This document shows positions 43,320 to 60,499 of a DNA stretch of 64,000 nucleotides, piece after piece; the stretch's first letter is position 1; each line of letters starts with the position of its first letter. Source of the stretch: Bacteriovoracaceae bacterium. GTDB lineage: Bacteria; Bdellovibrionota; Bacteriovoracia; Bacteriovoracales; Bacteriovoracaceae. Where the stretch lies: contig JAEUWD010000024.1 of assembly GCA_016786485.1 (NCBI GenBank), positions 1-64,000 of the forward strand. The letters are read 5' to 3'. The notes beneath the pieces are model-generated. The model ran no database searches and was not told the DNA's origin. It worked only from the letters and a program-made list of their open reading frames with translations. The translations under genes and the position numbers were made by a program.

Positions 43320-44024
43320 CTAATGACAGCGATGGACCTTTTGTTCTGGTGTGGTCGAAGCACTCTGTGTCCAAGGATAAGCATATAAACGAGTCGCAAT
43401 CGTCGTAAGTCCAATAAAAATAAAAACCAGTGCATAAACTTTTGGCAGACGTTTTTTCAAAGGTTTTAAAATCTTTTTTACCACTTGAGGTGCGGCCACC
43501 ATCGCAGGTAACGTACCTAACCAAAAAAATAAAAGCGAAAGCATAACATACTGAAATTCGCCTAAGGCCACGGCTGCTAACAAGACACCGTAAACAAGTC
43601 CACAAGGCAACATAATGGATATCAGTCCTATAAAAAAAGAGTGAAATGGACTTTCTTTTGAAACCAAATGGCGAAAAGAATATTGATATATTTTACGTAA
43701 AAAATTAGGGAGCGGAATTTCGGCTTTTCTTCCCTGATAACTTTGAATTCCCCAATATATAAAAAGTAAGCCTAAAATCAAGCCTGAGGTCAGTACCCCT
43801 GACTGCAAAGTAAAAACTTCTTTTAACAAAGAACCAAAAGCGAAGGCCATCGCACCGAGAATCGAATATCCCACCAGCCTACCGGTTTGATAAATCAAAA
43901 CGTCTTTTGGATTATGACAGCTTGCTGTGACTAAGCCTCCACACATGCCTACACAGTGAAGACTGCCAGAGATTCCGGCGATAAAAGAAGCATAAGGTAG
44001 TAAATGATTAGTTAGGTCCAACAA
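43320..44024 (-). CDS. TauE/SafE-like (DsbD_2) membrane protein of cbb3 operon
   Basis: A 234-residue membrane protein with six hydrophobic segments and the family marker GISGSLHCVGMCGGLV near the N-terminus and MLPCGLVYGVL in the middle. Members of this 'sulfite exporter TauE/SafE' group commonly end cbb3 operons and are thought to assist copper or thiol handling during oxidase assembly. Overlaps ccoG by 17 nt. Confidence 0.85.
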   Translation of the reverse strand: MLDLTNHLLPYASFIAGISGSLHCVGMCGGLVTASCHNPKDVLIYQTGRLVGYSILGAMAFAFGSLLKEVFTLQSGVLTSGLILGLLFIYWGIQSYQGRKAEIPLPNFLRKIYQYSFRHLVSKESPFHSFFIGLISIMLPCGLVYGVLLAAVALGEFQYVMLSLLFFWLGTLPAMVAAPQVVKKILKPLKKRLPKVYALVFIFIGLTTIATRLYAYPWTQSASTTPEQKVHRCH

Positions 44025-45399
44025 GGGTAACCTCCTTTTCTGAAAAGACTAACTGAGATTTATGATCGATAGCTTGTACCGTGGCCTTGAATTTACCAGC
44101 GTTAAGTAAATCTGAATGAAAACGGAAAAAGACGACGATTTTTTTTTCCGCTTTATCGAGCTCCACAGGTTGTTTAGGAGTAATAATCTCAATTTTATTG
44201 GCCAGTTCAGGTTCTTGAATTTTTAAATCTACTGAAAGATGTTCACGTCCTTGGTGCGATAATTTCAGTTGAAATTGATTCATAATTTTTCCTTCTTGAG
44301 TCATGCTATAAGGCAACTTTGCTCTAAGAAAAACTAGTTTTAATTTTGTCGATGAATGTAAAAAATAAATAAAGGCCGTCAGCAAGATTAAAGAAATTGA
44401 AAAATAAATTCGACTACGAGGAGTGAAAACCTTGTGTTGCTCTTTACTTTCAGAATTGTATTTGATCAGACCACGAGGCTTTTTTATCTTATCCATGACA
44501 TTGTCACAAGCATCGATACAGCGAGTACAGTGAATGCATTCCAACTGTGTTCCTCTTCGTATATCAATACCGGTCGGACAAACTTTGACACATAAATAAC
44601 AATTAACACAATCGCCTTGAGCGCCTTTTTCAGAGCTACCAAACCGTGGCTCGCCTCGTTTTGCATCGTAGGCCACAACTAATGAATTTTCATCCATCAT
44701 GACCGATTGAATTCTGCCGTAGGGACACATAATGATGCAGAATTGCTCTCGAAACCAACCAAAATCAAAAAGAAAAATACCCGTCACTGTCATGGTGGTC
44801 AAAAAAAGACCCCAATTTTCCAGTGGCGACCCCATTGTTTTTAATAACAATTCACGCGGGCCAAGGAGATATCCTATAAAAGTATGAGCTATGTGAAGTG
44901 ACAACAAGACAAATAAAAACCATTTCAAACCACGCTTAAAAATTTTATGCGCATTCCAGCTTGAAGCATCGAGTTCGCGTTGCTGCTTAGGCGTGCCCTC
45001 AATAAAAGTTTCGATCTTAAGAAAAAGCGCCTGTATAAAAACCGTTTGCGGACAGGCCCAACCACACCATACTCTTCCATAGACACTGGTGATAAAGGCC
45101 ATCATGAACAAAAGGCATGCAGCCGCTAAAAACATCAGGACAGGTTCCATACCGTAAAGAGTTTCTCCTAAAAAAGTAAACTCACGATGAAAAATATCGA
45201 TCTGAAGTGCAGGTTTGCCCTTAATATTAATCCAAGGTAAAACCAGATAGATTCCAATCAAGAACCAAAAGAAAACTGAACGACGTTTTTGCCACTTGCC
45301 GTTTATTTCTTGAGGATGCAAATAAACGCGATTACCATCGACATCAGTCGTTGCAAGTCTTTCCGGATCAAGTTCGAAAATACTTTTACTTGTCGACAA
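44008..45399 (-). CDS. ccoG: cbb3 oxidase accessory protein CcoG (FixG/RdxA)
   Basis: A 463-residue membrane protein with about five transmembrane helices, CGWACPQTVF in the second, and two 4Fe-4S sites (CVNCYLCVKVCPTG and CIHCTRCIDACD, near residues 260-305). A periplasmic Ig-like C-terminus follows a helix at about 330-350. CcoG reduces Cu(II) to Cu(I) for the oxidase CuB site. Overlaps ccoP by 14 nt. No separate ccoH/fixH gene follows. Confidence 0.95.
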   Translation of the reverse strand: MSTSKSIFELDPERLATTDVDGNRVYLHPQEINGKWQKRRSVFFWFLIGIYLVLPWINIKGKPALQIDIFHREFTFLGETLYGMEPVLMFLAAACLLFMMAFITSVYGRVWCGWACPQTVFIQALFLKIETFIEGTPKQQRELDASSWNAHKIFKRGLKWFLFVLLSLHIAHTFIGYLLGPRELLLKTMGSPLENWGLFLTTMTVTGIFLFDFGWFREQFCIIMCPYGRIQSVMMDENSLVVAYDAKRGEPRFGSSEKGAQGDCVNCYLCVKVCPTGIDIRRGTQLECIHCTRCIDACDNVMDKIKKPRGLIKYNSESKEQHKVFTPRSRIYFSISLILLTAFIYFLHSSTKLKLVFLRAKLPYSMTQEGKIMNQFQLKLSHQGREHLSVDLKIQEPELANKIEIITPKQPVELDKAEKKIVVFFRFHSDLLNAGKFKATVQAIDHKSQLVFSEKEVTLVGPN

Positions 45400-45979
45400 T
45401 CTTTTCTCCCTGTGGCTTTTTGCCTTTTTTGAAAGTATTTTTAAAAGTCATGACATAACTTACGGCCTGATAAATTTCGTCTTTAGAAATAACTTCTGAC
45501 CAGATTGGCATTCCATTTTCTTCCGATCCATTAAAGATCACTGAATAGATCGACTCTGGTGTACCTTTAGCTATTAGCCAGTAATCGTCAGTTAAATTTG
45601 GCCCCGTATCCCCGACACCATCTTTCAAATGACAAGGCAGACAGTTAATTTCATAAACTTCTTTGCCTTTCTCAAGACCACCGTCTGCAATAATTTTTTG
45701 ATAGTATGAGTCGTCGAAAAGAGATTCTTTTCGTTTAAATTCAGTCTGCTTCACTATAATCTCAGAATATTCCGTTTGAAACTCTTCGACTAAAGTCGGA
45801 CCTCCCATGAATTGGTAATAGACAAAATATCCGATGGAAAAAACAATTGAAATGGCCCAAATCGTATTCCACCAACTCGGTAAAGGGTGATTGAGTTCTT
45901 GAATATTGTCATAGTTATGATCAAGTAAAAGATGTTTTTCATCTTCTTTGACTTCAATTTTTTCCTCAGTATTATTCAT
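45386..45979 (-). CDS. ccoP: cbb3 oxidase subunit III, short mono-haem CcoP
   Basis: A 197-residue protein. The N-terminus has the CcoP signature HNYDNIQELNHPLPSWW before a single transmembrane helix (about residues 40-60). Only one c-type haem site is present (CLPCH near residue 115), with Met in NGMPIW as likely axial ligand. Proteobacterial CcoP has two CxxCH sites and about 300 residues, so the second haem domain is missing. Overlaps ccoQ by 8 nt. Confidence 0.9.
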   Translation of the reverse strand: MNNTEEKIEVKEDEKHLLLDHNYDNIQELNHPLPSWWNTIWAISIVFSIGYFVYYQFMGGPTLVEEFQTEYSEIIVKQTEFKRKESLFDDSYYQKIIADGGLEKGKEVYEINCLPCHLKDGVGDTGPNLTDDYWLIAKGTPESIYSVIFNGSEENGMPIWSEVISKDEIYQAVSYVMTFKNTFKKGKKPQGEKIVDK

Positions 45980-46160
45980 ATAAATTCCTTTTATGTTTTA
46001 CTTCATCCACCAAGGGAATCTCTGCCATTTGCTGAAAGAAATTTTTATTTTGCGACCGATAGGTCCACCAAAAATAAATGATAAAACAAATGACAAAAAG
46101 AATAAGTGCACTCACTGGTAACCATGGCATATCAAAATGTTGTAATGCTTGTTGTTTCAT
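45972..46160 (-). CDS. ccoQ: CcoQ-like small cbb3 oxidase subunit
   Basis: A 62-residue protein with one transmembrane helix (PVSALILFVICFIIYFWWTY), sitting between ccoNO and ccoP, the usual position and size of CcoQ, which stabilises CcoP association. Sequence identity to CcoQ is not strong, so the name rests on context. One-base overlap with ccoNO. Confidence 0.8.
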   Translation of the reverse strand: MKQQALQHFDMPWLPVSALILFVICFIIYFWWTYRSQNKNFFQQMAEIPLVDEVKHKRNLYE

Positions 46161-48322
46161 TATTTTTCCTCCTGTGCAGGTTCATCAGGGACAGAACCGT
46201 AATCAATTCCAAGTCTTTGGATATATGCAATTAAAGAAACGATTTCCATTTCTGCAAGTTTGGCAGGGACACCACTTTGTGCCAGCTCATCTGCTATTGT
46301 TTTGGCCTGAGCTTTAGCATCATCAATCGAACTTGCGATCTGTTGATCGGTATATGGGACTCCTAATTTTTGCATCACACGCATTTTGGCAGGGATGCCC
46401 GTATAAGGGAGCTTTTGATCAAACAGCCAATGATATCTCGGCATAATAGATCCGGCCGTCATTTCACGTGGATCCCAGAAATGTTTGTAATGCCACATAT
46501 GAGGATATTTTCCCCCAGCGCGCGCAAGATCTGGGCCGGTTCGTTTTGATCCCCATTGAAATGGATGATCGTAAACAAATTCAGCGGCATTGGAAGCCTT
46601 ACCATATCTCACAACCTCATGGGCCATTGGTCTGACTGTTTGAGAGTGACAGGTATAGCAACCTTCTTTGATGTAAATATCACGGCCATGGAGCTCTAAG
46701 GGCGTGTAAGGCTTAATCGCACTCACTTTCACGATGTATTTATCAGCTAAGAGTGAAGGTATAATTTCAATTCCTGAACCAACCAAAATTGCAATTAGTG
46801 AGAGAACGGAAAAGATCATTGGCACACCCTCTAGCTTTCGATGGGCCGAAGCATGTGCTTCAATAGAAGACGCGTCTAAAGCATAAGCTTCATAAATCGT
46901 TTCCTCTTTAACCGAAGCTTGTTTGATTGTGCGATAAAAATTATACATCATTATAATGAAAGAAATTAAAACGGATGTTCCACCAATTGCACGAACCCAA
47001 TACATCGGAACAATCTTTATGACCGTTTCGATGAAATTTGGATAAATCAATCGTCCGGCATCATCCATCGCTCTCCACATAAGTGATTGAGTGATGCCTG
47101 CTACCCACATCGAAACGATGTAAAGAACGAGTCCAAAAGTTGCAAGCCAAAATTGTTGATGCGCAAGTTTTTTAGAATAAAGCTCTGTGTTCCAAAGTTT
47201 TGGAACCAAATAAAAGAGAATCCCTGAGATCAACATATAATTCCAACCAATCGTTCCCGAGTGAACGTGACCAGGAATCCAATCAGTAAAATGTGCGATG
47301 GCATTAACTGATTTAATCGAAAGCAAAGGTCCTTCAAAAGTTGCCATCCCATAAAACGTCACCGCAGTGGCCATGAAACGAACTGAAGGCTCTGTGCGAA
47401 CTTTGTTCCACACTCCACGCAAGGTCATAAGGCCGTTGATCATGCCTCCCCAGCTTGGCATCCACAACATCACTGAAAAAACCATACCTAAGGTCTGCGC
47501 CCATTCTGGTAAAGTTGTATAAAGCAAGTGATGAGGGCCGGCCCAGATATAAATGAAAACTAATGACCAAAAGTGAATAATAGAAAGTCGATAAGAATAC
47601 ACCGGTCGATTAACGGCTTTAGGGATGAAGTAGTACATCAAACCTAAAAAAGGAGTAGTAAGAAAAAATGCGACAGCATTATGTCCATACCACCATTGCA
47701 CTAATGCATCTTGTACACCAGCATAGAGTGAATATGATTTAGTAAAAGAAACAGGAAACTCAAGCGAATTTACAATATGTAAAACGGCGACAGTAATAAT
47801 CGTAGCTATGTAAAACCAAATAGCGACATAGATATGTCGTTCCCGTCGGCGAATGATAGTTCCAAAAAAGTTAACCGCGAAAACCACCCAAATCACTGTG
47901 ATTAAAATATCAATCGGCCACTCAAGCTCTGCATATTCTTTTCCGGTCGTGATACCAAACGGAAGTGTTAAAGCGGCTGAAACAATAATCAATTGCCAGC
48001 CCCAAAAGTGAACTTTCGAAAGAACATCACTGAAGAGGCGACTTTTTAATAGTCGCTGATGGGAATAATAAATACCCGCAAAGATCGCGTTACCACAAAA
48101 AGCAAAAATAGCTGCATTCGTGTGAAGCGGTCTTAACCGACCAAAGGTAAGCCAAGGTATTTCGAAATTAAAACGCCACTCGGCCAGCTGAAATGCGATT
48201 GTTACACCCAGTAGAAGTGCCACTGCTCCCCAGAGCAAAGTCGCAATCACAAATTTTTTAACAATCTCATCATCATAAGTAAAAGTCTCTGGCTTGCCAG
48301 TCCTCATCTGATTCGAACTCAT
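46160..48322 (-). CDS. ccoNO: Fused cbb3 oxidase subunits I and II (CcoN-CcoO)
   Basis: A 720-residue fusion. Residues about 1-480 are CcoN with 12 transmembrane helices and His ligands of the low-spin haem and haem-CuB centre (RPLHTNAAIFAF, QWWYGHNAVAFFLTTPF, WAGPHHLLYTTLP, FTDWIPGHVHSGTIGWNY). After a transmembrane linker near 505-525 comes CcoO with one c-haem (CYTCHSQTVRP near residue 553), WGSKRTGPDLARAGG and MPRYHWLF. It reduces O2 to water at low oxygen. Fusion of the two subunits is as in Bacteroidota-type operons. Confidence 0.96.
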   Translation of the reverse strand: MSSNQMRTGKPETFTYDDEIVKKFVIATLLWGAVALLLGVTIAFQLAEWRFNFEIPWLTFGRLRPLHTNAAIFAFCGNAIFAGIYYSHQRLLKSRLFSDVLSKVHFWGWQLIIVSAALTLPFGITTGKEYAELEWPIDILITVIWVVFAVNFFGTIIRRRERHIYVAIWFYIATIITVAVLHIVNSLEFPVSFTKSYSLYAGVQDALVQWWYGHNAVAFFLTTPFLGLMYYFIPKAVNRPVYSYRLSIIHFWSLVFIYIWAGPHHLLYTTLPEWAQTLGMVFSVMLWMPSWGGMINGLMTLRGVWNKVRTEPSVRFMATAVTFYGMATFEGPLLSIKSVNAIAHFTDWIPGHVHSGTIGWNYMLISGILFYLVPKLWNTELYSKKLAHQQFWLATFGLVLYIVSMWVAGITQSLMWRAMDDAGRLIYPNFIETVIKIVPMYWVRAIGGTSVLISFIIMMYNFYRTIKQASVKEETIYEAYALDASSIEAHASAHRKLEGVPMIFSVLSLIAILVGSGIEIIPSLLADKYIVKVSAIKPYTPLELHGRDIYIKEGCYTCHSQTVRPMAHEVVRYGKASNAAEFVYDHPFQWGSKRTGPDLARAGGKYPHMWHYKHFWDPREMTAGSIMPRYHWLFDQKLPYTGIPAKMRVMQKLGVPYTDQQIASSIDDAKAQAKTIADELAQSGVPAKLAEMEIVSLIAYIQRLGIDYGSVPDEPAQEEK

Positions 48323-48495
48323 ATCTCTTTTCCTTTTTTAGGGTCCATAGGACCTATCGTTTCATCTAAAAGCATTCTATATTTAGGTGTCTCCACATCA
48401 TCGTATTGACCTCTTTTAACCGCCCATAAAAATAAAAAAACAAATAAAGCTCCCATCCCTAATGCCAACGGCATGAGAATAATTAGGATTTCCAT
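48319..48495 (-). CDS. ccoS: cbb3 oxidase maturation protein CcoS
   Basis: A 58-residue protein. It starts MEILIILMPLALGMG, continues as a single transmembrane helix (ALFVFLFLWAVKRGQYDD) and ends Lys-rich; QYDD(V/L)ETP is the CcoS hallmark. It overlaps the end of ccoI by 13 nt and the start of ccoNO by ATGA, the standard position. CcoS is needed for haem insertion into the oxidase. Confidence 0.93.
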   Translation of the reverse strand: MEILIILMPLALGMGALFVFLFLWAVKRGQYDDVETPKYRMLLDETIGPMDPKKGKEI

Positions 48496-50807
48496 AATGA
48501 CCTCATTTTTTTTGTCCCTAGAAGAGTCGAGATAAGAACGGTGAGTGAACTTGCAGGCATGATAATGGCCGCCACTAAGGGACTAATCATACCCATAAAA
48601 ACAAAAACGACCGAAAGGGAATTATAGCAAAGTGAAAGTATTAAATTACGTTTCACGACTTGCATCGTTTCACGAGAGAGAATCAATATTTTTTCGACAC
48701 TGACCAAGCCTGGTGTAGTCAAGTAAACATCCGCAGCACGAAGAGAAATATCCATCGCACCTGAAACGGCAATTCCGACACTAGCCGCTTCTAATGCCAT
48801 GGCATCGTTCGCACCATCACCTACCATCAATGAGTCATTTGTCTTGATGATTTTAACTTTTTCTTCAGGACTGATTTCAGCATAACTATTATCAATACCT
48901 GTTTCGCGCGCCACTTGTTCGACAACCTCGCGACGATCGCCAGAGATAATAGAAACTTTGTGACCTAATTTTTTAAAATGTGAGATAATTGTTTTAGAAT
49001 CGTAGCGAAGAACATCTTGCACTTGAAAAGTCGCTATGACTTTACCATTTTCACGAATTTCACCACGAGAGATGTGATAGAGCTTACCATTTATTATACC
49101 CTGTACTCCCAAACCAGGAATTTCAAGATATTCTGTTACTTCAAGCGGCTTAGCACTCTGTTCAAGTGCAAACTCGACTAATGCACGCCCCACAGGATGA
49201 CGTGATTTTTTTTCTAAACTATAAATGATATTGTTAACCGGAACCTGCGAGTTTAAATTGATGACCTGCAGTCGTCCTAAAGTGATGGTCCCTGTTTTGT
49301 CGAGAAAGATCTCCTTCACCTTGGCCAGCTTTTCAAAAACTTCATCGCTCTTAATAAAAATACCATGTTTTGAAGCTTGAGAGAGACTACGATGGAAAGT
49401 CAGAGGAACGGAAATTGCCAAGGCACAAGGACAAGTGACGATCAGTAGAGTCATCGCTCGTGTTAAAGCTATCTCCATTCCCTCTGGCAAAAGAATAGCA
49501 AATAGTAACAAGGACATAAGAACAACACACAACGTGAAATATTTGGCAACAGTAGAAGTTAAATCGACGGTGCGCGAACGAAGCGCCCAGCCTTGTTCCA
49601 CATTTTTTAATATTTTTCCTAAGCGCGTTTCATGCGCGACTTTCGTTATCTGAATTATTAGCTCATCACCCAGATTCTGGGTTCCAGAAAACACTTGTGC
49701 GCCAACATCGACCTTTACTGGTATAGATTCACCTGTCAAAAGTGAATTATTCATCAATGAAGAACCGGCCAATACAATCCCATCGGCTGGGATAAACTCT
49801 TCGCGATGAACTTTAATAATATCACCCTGATTTAAAAAATCACTATAGACTTCTTCAAAACCATTTGTACTTTGCCGTTGTACACTTTCATTTCGATAAA
49901 AAAAGTGCAGGTCAGTAAGAGAGAGGCCTTTGTCTTGTATTTTTTTTAGAAAATATCGTGACAGTAATAAAAGAAAAACTAGCGTAGTGAGCGAATCGAA
50001 ATAATTTTCTTCTTGTCCATGCCAAAGATTCCAACCTCCCATGATGAATCCCATCAATAAAGAAAGAGCTATAGGTATATCAATCGACAAAGTTTTATTT
50101 CGTATAGATGTTATGGCGCTTTGATAGAATGGCCAGGCACTATAAGTAAATACAGGGATAGCGAGAATCACGGTCAACGCATTAAACAGACTGGCCACGG
50201 ATTTATCTGCGCCTGCATAGAGCGAAAATGAATAGATCATGATATTGCCTGCAGCTGCACCGGCAATACCTAAGCGCTTAAGGTATTTTTTTTCTTCTTG
50301 GATACGAAGATCCTTAGCTTGATTGCTATTTGCCAAAGCATGAGGACGGTAACCGAGCTGATTCAACTCCTGTGCCACTCGAGAAAATTTTCCGGTATGT
50401 GCAATCACAACACTAACCACTGACTTCTCGATATCTAATTTTGCCGAGGCCACACCTTCAACATACTCAGGTAATTTTTCGATCAGCCATAAACATGCCA
50501 AGCAATGGATTCCTTCTAAATAAAAGTCCATCGTCCGCTGGCCCTCATAATTTAAGTAAGAATGTGTCGCTTCAAATCGTTCATCATCTAAAAAATTAAA
50601 GGTCTCAGATGAGGTAGTTACAGGTGAACGCCGTTTGAAAGTGCCTGAAGCATTTTTGATTTTATAGTATGAGGTTAAACTTTTTTCTTTAAGCAATTCA
50701 AAAACGGTTAAACAACCATGACAGCAGAAAGGGAATTGGTATTCCCCGTCTGCAGCAGAGTAAATTGGCCGCAACGCCTGTTCATCGCAATGTGCACACT
50801 TCAACAT
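48483..50807 (-). CDS. ccoI: Copper-transporting P1B ATPase CcoI (FixI)
   Basis: A 774-residue P-type ATPase. The N-terminal Cys-rich segment (CAHCDEQALRPI, FCCHGC) and HMA-like CLACLWLIEKL are CcoI features. Then come LTGES, the metal site TCPCALAIS, the phosphorylated Asp in DKTGTITLG, and MVGDGANDAMAL. It exports Cu(I) to the periplasm for cbb3 assembly, and leads the operon. An FNR-like box is centred about 82 nt upstream of the start. Confidence 0.95.
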   Translation of the reverse strand: MLKCAHCDEQALRPIYSAADGEYQFPFCCHGCLTVFELLKEKSLTSYYKIKNASGTFKRRSPVTTSSETFNFLDDERFEATHSYLNYEGQRTMDFYLEGIHCLACLWLIEKLPEYVEGVASAKLDIEKSVVSVVIAHTGKFSRVAQELNQLGYRPHALANSNQAKDLRIQEEKKYLKRLGIAGAAAGNIMIYSFSLYAGADKSVASLFNALTVILAIPVFTYSAWPFYQSAITSIRNKTLSIDIPIALSLLMGFIMGGWNLWHGQEENYFDSLTTLVFLLLLSRYFLKKIQDKGLSLTDLHFFYRNESVQRQSTNGFEEVYSDFLNQGDIIKVHREEFIPADGIVLAGSSLMNNSLLTGESIPVKVDVGAQVFSGTQNLGDELIIQITKVAHETRLGKILKNVEQGWALRSRTVDLTSTVAKYFTLCVVLMSLLLFAILLPEGMEIALTRAMTLLIVTCPCALAISVPLTFHRSLSQASKHGIFIKSDEVFEKLAKVKEIFLDKTGTITLGRLQVINLNSQVPVNNIIYSLEKKSRHPVGRALVEFALEQSAKPLEVTEYLEIPGLGVQGIINGKLYHISRGEIRENGKVIATFQVQDVLRYDSKTIISHFKKLGHKVSIISGDRREVVEQVARETGIDNSYAEISPEEKVKIIKTNDSLMVGDGANDAMALEAASVGIAVSGAMDISLRAADVYLTTPGLVSVEKILILSRETMQVVKRNLILSLCYNSLSVVFVFMGMISPLVAAIIMPASSLTVLISTLLGTKKMRSLWKS

Positions 50808-50882
50808 ATTTATCCTTATTTTGATGATACTGATCTATTGCTAAGTCGCACTGACGAGCATCATGATTGAAAATAATGAAAA

Positions 50883-50896
50883 ATGATCTTGATCAT
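50883..50896. promoter_or_regulatory. FNR-type box upstream of ccoI
   Basis: ATGATCTTGATCAT has the TGAT-N4-ATCA core of the FNR/DNR half-sites with an A/T change at each outer base. Centred about 82 nt before the ccoI ATG, it could place an activator near -41.5 of a start site about 40 nt downstream. A regulator with an FNR-like recognition helix is encoded 2 kb away. Confidence 0.65.
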
Positions 50897-50900
50897 GTTT

Positions 50901-52298
50901 TTATTCGAGGACAAATTCTTCGCCTAAATAAGGAATATCGACATTCGTAATCGCTAGTTCATTTTGTAGGCGATACTTTAATGCTTTGAGTGCTTGATTT
51001 TCACCATGATTTAAAAAAATATGACGAGGCAGCCGCTGGAAATGAGACAGCCATACCACCGTTTCTTTTGAGTCTGCATGGGCGGAGATTCCTTCTAAAG
51101 TCTCTACCTCGGCCTTAACCTCAATATTCTCATGATGAATTCGAATTCTATCAATACCATTTTGCAACAAGCGTCCCTTAGTCCCGCTTGCCTGAAATCC
51201 TGCAAACAATAGAATATTTTTTTTATCAGGGAGTCGCTGCTTTAAGTGATGAAGAATTCTTCCACCACTCAACATGCCAGCGGCAGAAATAATAATCATG
51301 GGGCCGGATTTTAAATTAAGTGCGCGTGAAGCTTCTGGAGTTGAAACGGCATGAAACTCAGGATCTTCCAAAGAAGTTTCAAAACCCTCTTCACCCTCCA
51401 CTATTTTAAGTTCTTCTTTATAGTTCCGATAAATTTCAGTTGCCTTCAGGGCCATCGGACTGTCCACAAAGACTGGTAGAGGTGGAATTTGTTTATTTTT
51501 TAATAACTTATGAATGTAATAGAGTATTTCTTGTGTTCGTCCAACAGCAAAAGCTGGAATAACCAGTACACCTTCTCGAGACATTACTTTGTGAATAACA
51601 TCCGTCAGCTGTTTTTCTAACTTCTCAGCGTGATGGACTTTATCACCATAGGTTGCTTCTAAAACTAAATAGTCACTTTCAAGAATATTGACAGGACCTT
51701 TTATTATTGGTGACCGATCTGAACCAAGATCACCAGAAAAGGTCAGGATCTTTTGACCGTTACCAGTATCAAAAGAAAATTGGACAAAACTTGAGCCGAG
51801 AATATGACCTGAACGTAACAGCTTTACTGAAAGTCCAGCACCGAGTTCCATCCACTCGTCACGTTTGATGATTTTAAACAATTTTATCGTTTGCTCCACA
51901 TCCTCTAATGTAAAAAGCGGAATCGCGGGATGATGAGATGAGTGTCCTTTGCGATTTGCATAAGCAGCATCCTCTTCTTCGATATGAGCAGCATCAATCA
52001 GAAGAATTTTAGTCAGAGCTGCTGTTGCGGCAGTACAATAAATGGGCCCACGAAAACCATTCTGTACTATTTTTGGCAAATAACCGCTGTGATCAATATG
52101 AGCATGTGTTAAAATCACGCCGTCATATCTATCAGCATGAGGAAGCTCTTCTCGATTAAGTTGTCGCAATTCTTTGGGGCCTTGGTAAGTTCCGCAATCC
52201 ACCAAAAATGACAGATTCTTATAATTAACTTGAGTTTTACTTCCTGTTACTTCCCGCGCTGCCCCTAAGAATTTCAATCTCAAATTATGCTTATTCAT
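50901..52298 (-). CDS. Metallo-beta-lactamase/beta-CASP RNA hydrolase
   Basis: The ATG at 52298 has AAGGAG 9 nt upstream and overlaps the preceding gene by 8 nt. The 465-residue protein has LTHAHIDHSGYLP (motif 2), further MBL ligands in RSGHILGSSFV and FSGDLGSD, and beta-CASP motifs (SAAGMLSGG; HADSKE; FLNHGE as RMMBL). It is a CPSF73-like nuclease of the YSH1/exonuclease type, acting on RNA. Coupled to the Usp-like gene upstream and placed within the oxygen-response block, perhaps for post-transcriptional control. Confidence 0.9.
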   Translation of the reverse strand: MNKHNLRLKFLGAAREVTGSKTQVNYKNLSFLVDCGTYQGPKELRQLNREELPHADRYDGVILTHAHIDHSGYLPKIVQNGFRGPIYCTAATAALTKILLIDAAHIEEEDAAYANRKGHSSHHPAIPLFTLEDVEQTIKLFKIIKRDEWMELGAGLSVKLLRSGHILGSSFVQFSFDTGNGQKILTFSGDLGSDRSPIIKGPVNILESDYLVLEATYGDKVHHAEKLEKQLTDVIHKVMSREGVLVIPAFAVGRTQEILYYIHKLLKNKQIPPLPVFVDSPMALKATEIYRNYKEELKIVEGEEGFETSLEDPEFHAVSTPEASRALNLKSGPMIIISAAGMLSGGRILHHLKQRLPDKKNILLFAGFQASGTKGRLLQNGIDRIRIHHENIEVKAEVETLEGISAHADSKETVVWLSHFQRLPRHIFLNHGENQALKALKYRLQNELAITNVDIPYLGEEFVLE

Positions 52299-52797
52299 TA
52301 AGTAGTGCTCCTTCAGTTTCATTTATTAAAAATAAAACCCTGCCAGAAGAACTCTCTTTATAGATATCATAGATAAGGTTTTTCTTTGTCACTGGTATAG
52401 AAAGAACTGGATAATTCTGCGATTGCAGAAACAAAGCTATATCTCTATGTACATGATCCTCATCACCCAAAATAACCAAATTAATGGCCTTTTTTGAAAG
52501 AAGATTTAAAATGACATTATTTATCGAGCCCATATGAGAAACGGGCATAATGTTTAGCTTTGTATTTTTAGAATAATGACGTGCCCATTCAACTTCTTCT
52601 TCTAGCATTAACTTTGATTTCTGCTTAAGCTCGTCATTATTTTGCAGTAGTTGATTAGGTTCTGTATTCATTTGAACTAAATAAGTATTTAGTAAAAAAA
52701 AATTCAAGTGCTCCTGCGTATTCTGGGACAAATCCAATACGTATCTTAGCAGTGAGCGAGCTTGGGTAGTAAAATCGGTAGGAATAAGAATGTTCAT
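52291..52797 (-). CDS. Universal stress protein-like (UspA fold), divergent
   Basis: A 168-residue protein. N-terminal MNILIPTDFT (strand 1 and ATP-contact Asp) and LVILGDEDH are the recognised UspA landmarks, but the C-terminal G-x2-G-x9-GS nucleotide loop is absent (VHRDIALFLQSQNYPVLSIP). It may therefore be a non-nucleotide-binding Usp. Coupled to the beta-CASP gene by overlap. Usp genes often belong to hypoxia regulons. Confidence 0.8.
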   Translation of the reverse strand: MNILIPTDFTTQARSLLRYVLDLSQNTQEHLNFFLLNTYLVQMNTEPNQLLQNNDELKQKSKLMLEEEVEWARHYSKNTKLNIMPVSHMGSINNVILNLLSKKAINLVILGDEDHVHRDIALFLQSQNYPVLSIPVTKKNLIYDIYKESSSGRVLFLINETEGALLNE

Positions 52798-52870
52798 GAA
52801 TTTAGGGTAAGCTAATTCCTATTGGTACCCCATGACCAGTCTTGGTTGAAATTGTGACTTTTATCAGTTT

Positions 52871-53923
52871 TTAAGGAATACTTTCTAAACCAGCGCGATC
52901 TAAAACTGTAATTTCACGGCCATGAATTTCCACCATCTCATCTTCTTTAAACTCTGCCAAACAACGTATAACAGTTTCAGTGGCTGTTCCTACCATATTG
53001 GCCAAATCATCGCGACTGATTCTGACCGAGTTAGGATTCTTCGCTTTGGCCAATTTCATAAGTTGTAATAGAGCTTCCGCTGTTCTTTTACGAACAGTAT
53101 CGTAAGCCAATCGCAGAAGTTGTTTTTCCTGCTCTTCAACTTGATTAGAAAGAAGTTGAATAAATTTCTGGGCCACGTCTCGATTTTTATAAATTAACGC
53201 CAAAAAATCCTCTTTCGGTATTTTTAGAATTTCACTATCTTCCATAACCAACGCAGTATCAGAATAGAGGTGATTTTCAAACAATGAGACATGACCGAAA
53301 AATTCTCCTGACTGATAAATATTCGTAATCAAATCTTTTCCATCATCATGAGTTTTAAAAACTTTGACACTTCCCTTCACTAGAAAATAAAGATAGTGAG
53401 GTGTATCTCCCATGTGAAAAATAATTTCTTTCTTCTTGTATTTTGAACTTTCACGTCCTTTGGATAAGGACTGAAGCTCTTGAAGCCCACTTGCTTCATC
53501 TAAAAAACGATTAACACCTTTGGCGTCACGAGAAAATTCTTGCTTCAATGCATCTACTTTTTTCAAGCGCATTTCGATGGCATTAAGCAAATCCGTATCT
53601 TCAAAAGGCTTCGTTAGATAATCATCAGCTCCTAGCTCCATGCCTTTGCGCACTTCACTTTTTTCTGCTTTGGCGGTCAAAAAAATAAAAGGAATCGACG
53701 CGGTTTTCGGATCGCGTGAAAGAACATGAAGCACACCATACCCATCCAGCTCTGGCATCATGATGTCGCAAACAATCAGATCTGGCTTTACTTCTTTGGC
53801 CAAAGCACAACCATTTTTTCCGTTAACGGCAGTTTTAACACTAAAGCCGGCAAGCTCTAGAATTTCAGCGGTATTCTCACGCATAACTGTATCATCTTCA
53901 ATTAATAAAATTTTCTTCATCAT
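52871..53923 (-). CDS. Receiver-cNMP-binding-HTH regulator (FNR/CRP family hybrid)
   Basis: A 350-residue protein: receiver domain (IEDD; phosphoacceptor in VCDIMMPELDG, Asp53; LTKPF), linker, CRP-type beta-roll (about residues 160-280; GDTPHYLYFLVKGSVKVF, GEFFGHVSLF), and Crp HTH (RISRDDLANMVGTATETVIRCLAEF). The recognition helix has Glu and Arg in TETVIR, without the CRP-specific Arg, so it should read TGAT-N4-ATCA. No N-terminal iron-sulfur cysteines. Start overlaps the kinase stop (ATGA), giving a two-component pair likely controlling the cco operon. Confidence 0.92.
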   Translation of the reverse strand: MMKKILLIEDDTVMRENTAEILELAGFSVKTAVNGKNGCALAKEVKPDLIVCDIMMPELDGYGVLHVLSRDPKTASIPFIFLTAKAEKSEVRKGMELGADDYLTKPFEDTDLLNAIEMRLKKVDALKQEFSRDAKGVNRFLDEASGLQELQSLSKGRESSKYKKKEIIFHMGDTPHYLYFLVKGSVKVFKTHDDGKDLITNIYQSGEFFGHVSLFENHLYSDTALVMEDSEILKIPKEDFLALIYKNRDVAQKFIQLLSNQVEEQEKQLLRLAYDTVRKRTAEALLQLMKLAKAKNPNSVRISRDDLANMVGTATETVIRCLAEFKEDEMVEIHGREITVLDRAGLESIP

Positions 53924-55149
53924 TTCTCTTTTGGTAATATAACTTGAAAAGTTGTTCCTTCGTTTTCACGACTCGTAAAATGAATGGAGCCACCCATTAA
54001 ATCGACGTAACGTTTTACGATGTTAAGACCTAAGCCTGTACCTTGTAGATTGAGTACATTTTGCGCCCTAAAAAATCGTTCGAATAAATGCTTCTGATCA
54101 GCTACTGGTATACCAACCCCGTAATCCTGGATCTCTAAAGACACTTGCTGATCTTTCAAATTCGTACGAATGTGTATCGTCGTTCCATCCATTGAATATT
54201 TGATAGCATTAGAAACTAAATTAAAGATAATATTTCGGATCATTTCTTTATCTTGAAAAACTTCCAGGTTCTGTATCGCATGTGTAACCTGTAGATCATG
54301 TCCCTTTCCACTCATCTCTTTTAATTCTTCGATCGACTCATCAATGAACTGGGTTAAATAAAAACGTGTCGGACTCGAAGAAATTTTTCCTTGCTCAAGT
54401 TTATCCAAAGAAAGAAAGTCATTAAGAATATTATTAAGATTACGAACTGATTTTTTAATCGTTTGCACATGTTTTTCACGTTTAGGTTCGTCTTCTGTTT
54501 TTGGGTATTTTGCAATTAAAGAAGCAGAAGTGAGAATTCCACCTAATGGCGTTCGAAACTCATGTGAGGCCATTGAGACGAAACGAGACTTGAGTTCATT
54601 AAGCTCTTTCTGTTTTTCGAGCATCTCTCGCATTTGGGCTTCTATTCTTTTTCGATGCTCCATTTCTTGTTGCAAACCTTTATTTGTAACACTGAGTTCC
54701 AACAGGGCATCTGAAAGTTCTTTCGTTCTTTCTGTGACTTTAGATTCCAATTCTTCGGTCATACGAAGTAACTCATCTTCTGCGCGCTTACGTTCAGTAA
54801 TGTCATTAATAAAGCTAACAATTTGACGATGTCCATTGGTCTCAAAAAAGGTAAGACTGATTTCAACTGGAAACGTATCTCCACTTTTTTTCAGTGCCAA
54901 AAGATTAATATTTTTTCCCATCGCCCGAGGATGAGGGTTTTCAATGTATTGTTGACGATATTTAACGTGTCTTTCGCGCAAAGGCTGAGGAATGAGAACT
55001 TCGATGTATTGGCCAATTAGCTCGGTCGTTTCATAACCAAAAATTTTAGAAGCATAAGGATTGGCACGCTCAATAACTCCTTCATCGTTGGATAGAATAA
55101 TCCCAATTGATGAATGTTCGAATAACGCTTTAAAAGTCATTTCATACAT
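53920..55149 (-). CDS. Soluble PAS-domain sensor histidine kinase
   Basis: A 409-residue kinase without transmembrane segments. PAS domain about residues 5-125, with FGYETTELIGQYIEVLIP and RERHVKYRQQY, in which a His occupies the position of the FixL haem ligand. A coiled coil (about 125-185) follows, then HisKA (FVSMASHEFRTPLGG) and HATPase_c (NLVSNAIKYS, DYGVGIP, GTGLGLNIV). It likely phosphorylates the receiver of the next gene. A cytoplasmic signal such as oxygen or redox fits the context. Confidence 0.9.
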   Translation of the reverse strand: MYEMTFKALFEHSSIGIILSNDEGVIERANPYASKIFGYETTELIGQYIEVLIPQPLRERHVKYRQQYIENPHPRAMGKNINLLALKKSGDTFPVEISLTFFETNGHRQIVSFINDITERKRAEDELLRMTEELESKVTERTKELSDALLELSVTNKGLQQEMEHRKRIEAQMREMLEKQKELNELKSRFVSMASHEFRTPLGGILTSASLIAKYPKTEDEPKREKHVQTIKKSVRNLNNILNDFLSLDKLEQGKISSSPTRFYLTQFIDESIEELKEMSGKGHDLQVTHAIQNLEVFQDKEMIRNIIFNLVSNAIKYSMDGTTIHIRTNLKDQQVSLEIQDYGVGIPVADQKHLFERFFRAQNVLNLQGTGLGLNIVKRYVDLMGGSIHFTSRENEGTTFQVILPKEK

Positions 55150-55283
55150 AATTCGGCCAATCCTAACGAAAGACTATGATCTAAGTCACTATATTAGAAT
55201 TATTCACTACAGATGGCCATCATAGCTATCACCAACCATGACAGGAGATTATCTAAACATCTTAACCTTTTTACATAGTAAGA

Positions 55284-57847: not shown

Positions 57848-58498
57848 TTATCCGAGATTATTAAAACTAAATTTGTCCCTTGTAGAATATGGAAATTCTC
57901 CTGAACTGTGCTTTTTTACAGCATATCCAGGATAAAGCCCCGCTCGAATAGCTTCGATGAATTGTTCCTTGGTCATCATTCGTTTATTCCGAATATCAAA
58001 AAATTCTATATTGGCCCCAGTTCTGTTTTCCCTAATTTTAATAACGAATGACTTGGGTAAACGCTTAATACTCTTAGAGCCTTTATATTTTCTTGAATCA
58101 CTTGGGGTGATAATCAGTTCTCCGTCCTTAAGTGCCTTAAGAAGAGCAAAAAATAATTCTTCGCCTCGCTTGAATTTTTTGCCATAATCTCGTCCAACTG
58201 AATTATTCCACAAATCCATATTGAGAGATGCTAGTTCATTGCTCCTCGGATCAAATTCGTTTAAACGACCAAGTAATTCTGCTGTTTCATAACTAAACTC
58301 AATCACATAGACAGCACTAACATAAGAGTGTCTCAAAGAATCAATATCATTGTCGTTGAAACTCGGATCACTACTTTTTATTGAACCATCTGAATTCCGT
58401 GGCATTTTTTTGTAATGCTTGTCGATTAACTGATAAAGTTCATCGCGGGCTTCTGCCTTTAAGTCCCAAATTTTAATTCCTATTTTTTCGGGAATCAT
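57848..58498 (-). CDS. DUF6973-like protein, copy 1 (putative effector)
   Basis: A 216-residue soluble protein, paralogous along its length to the gene at 59849. Core: DNDIDSLRHSYVSAVYVIEF (residues 49-68; Arg56, His57), ELLGRLNE (74-81), then MDLWNNSVGR (94-103). The RH...E...N.E...MDL.NN.VGR pattern is that of DUF6973-like domains, some of which occur in toxins; I name it from this pattern only. The last 20 residues (KHSSGEFPYSTRDKFSFNNL) are identical in both copies. ATGA overlap with the membrane protein gene upstream makes it the last gene of a five-gene operon. Confidence 0.6.
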   Translation of the reverse strand: MIPEKIGIKIWDLKAEARDELYQLIDKHYKKMPRNSDGSIKSSDPSFNDNDIDSLRHSYVSAVYVIEFSYETAELLGRLNEFDPRSNELASLNMDLWNNSVGRDYGKKFKRGEELFFALLKALKDGELIITPSDSRKYKGSKSIKRLPKSFVIKIRENRTGANIEFFDIRNKRMMTKEQFIEAIRAGLYPGYAVKKHSSGEFPYSTRDKFSFNNLG

Positions 58499-59848: not shown

Positions 59849-60499
59849 CTAACCAAGATTATTAAAGCTAAACTTATCTCTTGTCGAATATGGAAACTCA
59901 CCAGAACTATGCTTTTTGATAGCATAGCCAGGATATTTACCCTGTCTGATAGCCGCGATGAAATCAATCTTAGTCATAACAATTTTTTTTCGAACATCCA
60001 AAAACTCAGTATTAGCTCCAGTCTTATTCTCCTTAATCTTAATGACAAAAAACTTAGGCATTCGTTTGATTTTTTTGTCACCTTTATACTTTCTATCATC
60101 TTTCAAATCGATAATAAGCTGATTGTCTTTCAAGGCCTTCATCAGACTTAAATAAAGCTCATCCCAAGTTTTCGATTTCTTTCCGAATGTTCTGCCAACA
60201 GCATTATTCCACAAATCCATATTTTCGCTCACAGCTGAGGTTGAGCTTGAGTCAAATGATGTTAATTCATTCAGACGACCCATTAGTTCAGCCGTTTCTT
60301 CACTATATTCCATCGTATATACACCGCTAATATAGGCATGCCTCAAAGCATCTACATCATTATCCTCCAATCCAAGCCCGTACGGATCAATACTCCTATC
60401 AGACTTCTTAGGCATCGGACGCAAATCCTTGTCTAACCTATTATAAAGGTCAATCAAAGCTTCATCTTTTAAATGGTAAATCTTGAGAATGTTTCCCAT
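59849..60499 (-). CDS. DUF6973-like protein, copy 2
   Basis: A 216-residue paralogue of 57848-58498 with the same core: DNDVDALRHAYISGVYTMEY (residues 46-65; Arg53, His54), ELMGRLNEL, MDLWNNAVGR (94-103) and an identical C-terminal stretch. No membrane partner, RHH or DUF4160 gene is attached; the upstream neighbour is divergent. It may therefore act alone or depend on the partners of copy 1. Repeat element A follows its stop. Confidence 0.6.
   Translation of the reverse strand: MGNILKIYHLKDEALIDLYNRLDKDLRPMPKKSDRSIDPYGLGLEDNDVDALRHAYISGVYTMEYSEETAELMGRLNELTSFDSSSTSAVSENMDLWNNAVGRTFGKKSKTWDELYLSLMKALKDNQLIIDLKDDRKYKGDKKIKRMPKFFVIKIKENKTGANTEFLDVRKKIVMTKIDFIAAIRQGKYPGYAIKKHSSGEFPYSTRDKFSFNNLG

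Follow-up and report, generated by a model that had tools for sequence, protein, structure and literature searches.

The 64,000-nucleotide stretch of contig JAEUWD010000024.1 analysed here (hereafter the window, to which coordinates refer) comes from a member of the Bdellovibrionota, a relative of predatory bacteria, and carries a histidine kinase gene, a response regulator gene and a cbb3 oxidase gene cluster. We consider it probable that kinase and regulator form a two-component FixK/FNR-type switch setting cbb3 oxidase synthesis, and that this switch is a Bacteroidota module which took over a locus and boxes previously served by FNR. Judged from its sequence, the pair would work like FixL-FixK, yet would be neither a FixLJ system nor an iron-sulfur FNR. 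The two genes, which share an ATGA overlap, are the following (lengths in amino acids, aa):

53920..55149, (-) strand: soluble PAS sensor histidine kinase, 409 aa (Pfam PAS_9, HisKA, HATPase_c)
52871..53923, (-) strand: response regulator with receiver, CNB domain and Crp-type helix-turn-helix (HTH), 350 aa (Pfam Response_reg, cNMP_binding, HTH_Crp_2)

The CNB domain (Pfam score 8.4e-25 for PF00027) and the Crp-type HTH (7e-16 for PF13545) place the regulator, by sequence, in the Crp/Fnr superfamily, and Crp/FNR structures are its top fold matches. Because the arrangement of its domains is uncertain, the regulator model gives low TM-scores over its full length, and no conclusion on this arrangement is drawn. 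The protein also has the sequence hallmarks of a two-component response regulator: an acid pocket, a phospho-accepting Asp, Thr/Ser and Lys, together with an adjoining kinase gene. Across 26 homologues, the receiver residues D10, D53, T83 and K105 are invariant, as are E316, I319 and R320 of the recognition helix TETVIRCL. The regulator lacks a FixJ-type LuxR/NarL HTH output; according to Pfam, its output consists of CNB and HTH_Crp_2. Its sequence contains no CxxCx5-8C motif of the kind that provides the iron-sulfur FNR cysteines, and at the CRP phosphate-binding cassette it reads FFGHVSLFENHLYSDTA, without equivalents of Glu72 and Arg82. With neither the cassette Glu/Arg nor a cysteine cluster, control of the regulator by cAMP or by an iron-sulfur center was ruled out.

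Four boxes with the core TGAY-N4-RTCA accompany the pair and its neighbours:

50884..50895, (-) strand: TGATCAAGATCA, first ccoI box, centre 82 nt upstream of the ccoI ATG
50852..50863, (-) strand: TGATGCTCGTCA, second ccoI box, centre 50 nt upstream of the ccoI ATG and 32 bp from the first
52855..52866, (-) strand: TGATAAAAGTCA, Usp box, centre 63 nt upstream of the Usp ATG
55177..55188, (-) strand: TGACTTAGATCA, kinase box, putative autoregulation site, centre 33 nt upstream of the kinase ATG

Taken alone, the first ccoI box is weak evidence, because TGAT-N4-ATCA is frequent in coding DNA; the window holds 8 copies against 2.6 expected, mostly within genes. Jointly, the four boxes are far beyond chance. 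All of them fall within the 725 bp of non-coding DNA of the gene block, where dinucleotide shuffling yields a mean of 0.10 and a maximum of 2 in 4,000 shuffles, and a single box occurs in the rest of the window's non-coding DNA (6,541 bp). TGA is the sole trinucleotide half-site with more than one match in the non-coding DNA of the block. TTGATN4ATCAA, the form typical of E. coli, shows no enrichment in the window, and a genome-wide regulon built on it (26 sites, mostly intragenic) was dropped as following the wrong consensus. Earlier palindrome counts were likewise discarded as evidence of enrichment, their regions having been chosen around sites and crude gene calls having over-filled the intergenic DNA. 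Because sequences of relatives had in part guided the choice of the degenerate core, the independent test on Bacteroidota loci weighs more.

This test covered 80 regulator loci, nearly all from Bacteroidota (48-66% identical), with 120,813 bp of intergenic DNA in which all 256 four-base inverted repeats were counted at gaps of 0-10. TGAT-N4-ATCA ranks first, with 75 observed versus 5.5 expected. Next comes CTGA-N6-TCAG, an extension of the same repeat (26 versus 1.3), with TGAC-N4-GTCA close behind (31 versus 2.3). Among the Bdellovibrionota relatives, TGAT-N4-ATCA (8 versus 1.5 expected) is the top repeat of those not purely A/T. The genes 3' of the boxes in the 80 loci, named by sequence inspection and similarity to window proteins, are kinase (30, the largest target class in Bacteroidota), usp (26), ccoNO (13), hemN (9) and ccoI (6), followed by Hsp20 (5) and glutamyl-tRNA reductase-like genes (4).

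The base preceding TGA has frequencies of 0.47 for A, 0.34 for C and 0.11 for T in these mostly Bacteroidota loci, and the 41 boxes from Bdellovibrionota give counts of A 45, C 25, T 8 and G 4, a depletion of T with p = 9e-7. As read from these sequences, the box family is [A/C]TGAY-N4-RTCA[G/T] and lacks the T before TGA that marks the FNR/FixK box; the published FixK/FnrN motif is TTGANCNNGATCAANG (PMC4999443). The initial annotation of this DNA had placed an FNR box before ccoI. The box at 50884-50895 is indeed of genuine FNR class, while its family is not TTGAT-N4-ATCAA, and three further boxes had been missed. A plausible cause of the changed flank is Ile319, which stands where E. coli FNR has Ser212. 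This offers a testable specificity rule, namely that Ile at this position goes with A or C, not T, before TGA.

The pair itself is widely conserved. In 65 of 78 loci the kinase gene lies directly upstream of the regulator gene, mostly overlapping it or at a distance of at most 20 bp, and ccoNO is found within 10 kb of the regulator in 22 loci. On the mobilizable Hymenobacter swuensis plasmid pHsw1 (L329), the pair adjoins truncated haemoglobin genes and ccoI-ccoS-ccoN, and tandem boxes precede both ccoI and ccoN, an arrangement resembling that of the two ccoI boxes in the window; the plasmid represents a portable low-oxygen respiration module. Rather than the local circuit first proposed, the kinase-regulator pair is a widespread Bacteroidota module and no local invention, and it appears to have replaced iron-sulfur FNR here.

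The kinase offers several hints about its signal. With its PAS domain beginning near residue 4, it has no space for an N-terminal membrane segment. The phospho-acceptor His196 and the PAS His61 are invariant in 21 partner kinases, and His61 aligns with the histidine of FixL RSRH, the heme-ligand position. The PAS has 14 solved relatives (E <= 0.001), among them 13 heme domains from FixL or DosP; the fourteenth, 10jx, is a kinase PAS. A control PAS from the same genome matches mainly LOV/flavin-type PAS domains, so the structure search discriminates between PAS types. On these alignments, heme binding and O2 sensing by the kinase PAS are likely.

Two residue-level findings speak against direct oxygen sensing: the position of the FixL distal Arg220 is occupied by Ile81 in the window kinase, and it is hydrophobic in most Bdellovibrionota orthologues, so that oxygen ligation may differ or be absent. 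A possible, though rather unlikely, alternative is thus that the same circuit runs on a kinase reading redox state, NO/CO or electron flux via heme or another PAS ligand. Besides the missing arginine, this would fit the truncated haemoglobin gene next to the pair on pHsw1, and eight Bacteroidota partner kinases that carry receiver-like sequence where other partners align PAS, which means that kinase input varies. Against it stand the invariant His61, the heme O2 sensors as nearest solved PAS domains and the few Bacteroidota partner kinases with a complete FixL heme motif including GIGR. The targets cco and hemN, moreover, are classical low-oxygen genes.

The two-component switch that we infer extends the observed features (architecture, box enrichment, conserved neighbourhood, near mutual exclusion with FNR and tree positions) by phosphotransfer, DNA binding, activation over repression and oxygen as the signal. 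The soluble PAS kinase, probably of heme type, would be activated by low oxygen and would pass phosphate from His196 to Asp53 of the regulator. The phosphorylated regulator dimer, with its Fe-S-free CNB-HTH output, would then bind [A/C]TGAY-N4-RTCA[G/T] at ccoI and Usp, and would adjust its own operon via the kinase box. Given a leader of 41 nt, the ccoI box at -82 would lie at -41.5, a position suited to activation, and the kinase box at -33 would suggest negative feedback.

The kinase box also counts against a plain activator: ordinary class II activation would need it farther from the start codon, and its effect may be repression. Many Bacteroidota kinase boxes are similarly near. It is nevertheless doubtful that the regulator is mainly a repressor, or that it acts independently of phosphorylation with a receiver serving dimerisation only. 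Against these readings stand the invariant acid pocket, Asp53, Thr83 and Lys105, the very common kinase linkage and the ccoI box, well placed at -82 for class II activation with a leader of ~41 nt.

Whether the boxes serve this regulator was weighed against the remaining CNB proteins of the genome (98% complete, 2.98 Mb). Nine CNB domains are encoded, and eight further candidates, together with the use of the same box by iron-sulfur FNR in sister genera, could be taken to mean that another Crp/Fnr-type regulator reads the boxes and that the receiver-fused protein controls something else. We regard this as very unlikely, since only the window regulator passes the Crp-type HTH cut-off (PF13545), no iron-sulfur FNR was found in the window genome, and boxes not only stand before the pair itself but also accompany the regulator throughout Bacteroidota. 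That the ccoI box is a chance palindrome can practically be discarded: the abundance of TGATN4ATCA within window genes and the lack of TTGATN4ATCAA enrichment would allow it, but four block boxes against 0.10 expected and the cross-phylum enrichment already contradict it.

Comparison with sister genera hints at how the two-component switch came to this locus. In ten of them, an FNR of 234-252 aa with CxxCx8C...C is encoded inside or adjoining the cco cluster, in several cases immediately before ccoI or separated from it by one small gene. Most have boxes of the same type before fnr or ccoI (at -46 and -55 from ccoI in G003 and G005). The sister FNRs and the receiver-fused regulator share an ET-L/V-IR recognition helix. 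A protein of 110-133 aa, possibly an FNR partner, is encoded directly 3' of the cbb3-linked FNR in sister genera (L272:7571-7945, L273:4025-4357, L274:4263-4595, L275:4519-4920, L276:4913-5287); a lone CNB Pfam match is found in L272 and, just under the cut-off, in L273, the rest look alike, and some of the genes are preceded by a box.

All 24 cbb3-bearing family members have at least one of the two regulators, 19 having FNR and 6 the receiver-fused regulator, with G020 alone having both. Under random assignment, the other regulator would be present in every one of the five FNR-less genomes with a probability of 19/134,596 = 1.4e-4, or 8e-4 without counting the divergent FNR of G001; as species are not independent, this statistic is supportive only. 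To this extent the data support near mutual exclusion of the two regulators. The ccoNO tree places the window in a group with four FNR carriers (100% SH-aLRT) and shows six changes of regulator type. The regulator tree, by comparison, unites the seven Bdellovibrionota proteins in one clade (98%) inside Bacteroidota. These positions suggest, as the simplest reading, horizontal acquisition from Bacteroidota followed by FNR replacement, with the direction read from the nesting.

Several points temper this reading. Some regulator carriers are incomplete metagenome-assembled genomes (G013 66%, G018 87%, G015 88%), although G000, the window genome, and G034 are at least 98% complete; G020 has both regulators; and the trees are quick SH-aLRT trees. 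We see the odds as evenly balanced on the broader proposal that a mobile Bacteroidota two-component FNR family, also found on plasmids, took over from iron-sulfur FNR the role of master regulator at low oxygen in some genera of Bdellovibrionota, with the operators unchanged. Under such a replacement, the operator [A/C]TGAY-N4-RTCA[G/T] would have been kept because both regulators share the ET-(L/V)-IR helix, and the family would constitute a natural experiment in which the sensor was replaced and the operators stayed fixed.

Among known systems, the closest parallel is FixL-FixJ-FixK of rhizobia, which the initial annotation saw compressed into two proteins. Its logic is retained in predicted form (FixL-type heme-PAS kinase, receiver phosphorylation, Fe-S-free CNB-HTH output and a cbb3, or fixNOQP, target), with the reservation that FixL Arg220 is Ile here. 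The rest of that annotation, a receiver fused to an FNR-type reader and ATGA-coupled to a soluble PAS kinase, agrees with the Pfam domains, the gene overlap and the early PAS start. In rhizobia, two proteins are involved, FixJ and FixK, of which FixJ recognises a distinct DNA motif (PMC4999443), whereas the window combines receiver and FNR-type reader in one protein, its kinase lacks a membrane segment as well as Arg220, and its box flank is A/C instead of TTGA. The hFixL-FxkR-FixKf system of Rhizobium etli/leguminosarum similarly feeds kinase and response regulator into an FNR-family output to cbb3, but consists of three proteins with a transcriptional relay, in which FxkR binds GTTACA-N4-GTTACA (PMC4999443). 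With the iron-sulfur FNR of sister genera and E. coli, the window regulator shares the CNB-HTH architecture, the helix Glu and Arg, the TGA-N6-TCA box and, in the sister genera, the same cco locus. That FNR is a one-component protein with an N-terminal CxxCx8C cluster, in contrast to the receiver and kinase without cluster cysteines found here.

Bacteroidota pairs annotated generically as 'response regulator' and 'PAS domain-containing sensor histidine kinase', such as that of pHsw1, are homologous to the window pair; no account of their function was found. A 2026 review describes FNR/CRP regulators as one-component systems whose signal transduction involves neither kinase nor response-regulator domains (PMC12937710), and a 2007 survey of CNB domains merely mentions CheY-linked ones (PMC2246266). 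We found no dedicated study of receiver-Crp fusions in the open-access library searched. The receiver-fused family would represent a large systematic exception to one-component FNR/CRP signalling, with motif and regulon predicted, and provides a regulon prediction for an abundant Bacteroidota pair annotated merely as 'response regulator'.

Within the window genome, the search for the regulon covered some 1.3 Mb together with whole-genome pattern lists. A box precedes a CBS-domain gene both here (L107, -89) and in the sister genus G003 (L273, -69); this shared site suggests that part of the regulon survived the regulator swap. Two possible regulon members are a 490-aa protein without Pfam match (L113:2060-3532; box CTGATAATTATCAT, 52 nt upstream) and a cupredoxin-domain protein (L119, near 2001; box ATGATTTTCATCAT, 32 nt upstream of the called start). 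A frequent box target in relatives, hemN (oxygen-independent coproporphyrinogen oxidase), was rejected as a target in the window genome, where no orthologue was found (best match 29% over 184 residues). Genome G034 (L088, L285) suggests action in trans, since its ccoI has box ATGACGGATGTCAT at -41 although pair and cbb3 genes are on separate contigs.

All genes of the block lie on the (-) strand, in the order kinase, regulator, Usp-like, beta-CASP, ccoI, ccoNO, ccoP, ccoG and DsbD_2 from the 5' end. Those following the regulator are:

52291..52797, (-) strand: Usp-like protein, 168 aa (Pfam Usp, E=1.5e-4, slightly under the curated cut-off)
50901..52322, (-) strand: beta-CASP metallo-beta-lactamase-fold protein (Pfam Beta-Casp, RMMBL), start probably at 52298
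48483..50807, (-) strand: ccoI-type copper P-type ATPase (Pfam ATPase-cat_bd, E1-E2_ATPase)
46160..48322, (-) strand: fused ccoN-ccoO cbb3 oxidase subunit (NCBIfam PRK14485, above cut-off)
45386..45979, (-) strand: short ccoP, 197 aa (Pfam FixP_N, Cytochrome_CBB3)
44008..45399, (-) strand: ccoG (NCBIfam TIGR02745, above cut-off)
43320..44024, (-) strand: DsbD_2-type membrane protein of the cco cluster (Pfam DsbD_2)

By Pfam and NCBIfam, the cbb3 cluster is complete for ccoN, ccoO, ccoP, ccoG and ccoI. Apart from the fusion of ccoN and ccoO, its CcoP is unusual in having one cytochrome c match in its 197 aa, the usual CcoP being a two-heme protein. Elsewhere in the window, two paralogous 216-aa proteins are encoded 1.4 kb apart at 57848-58498 and 59849-60499 on the (-) strand, and share the identical C-terminal stretch HSSGEFPYSTRDKFSFNNLG.

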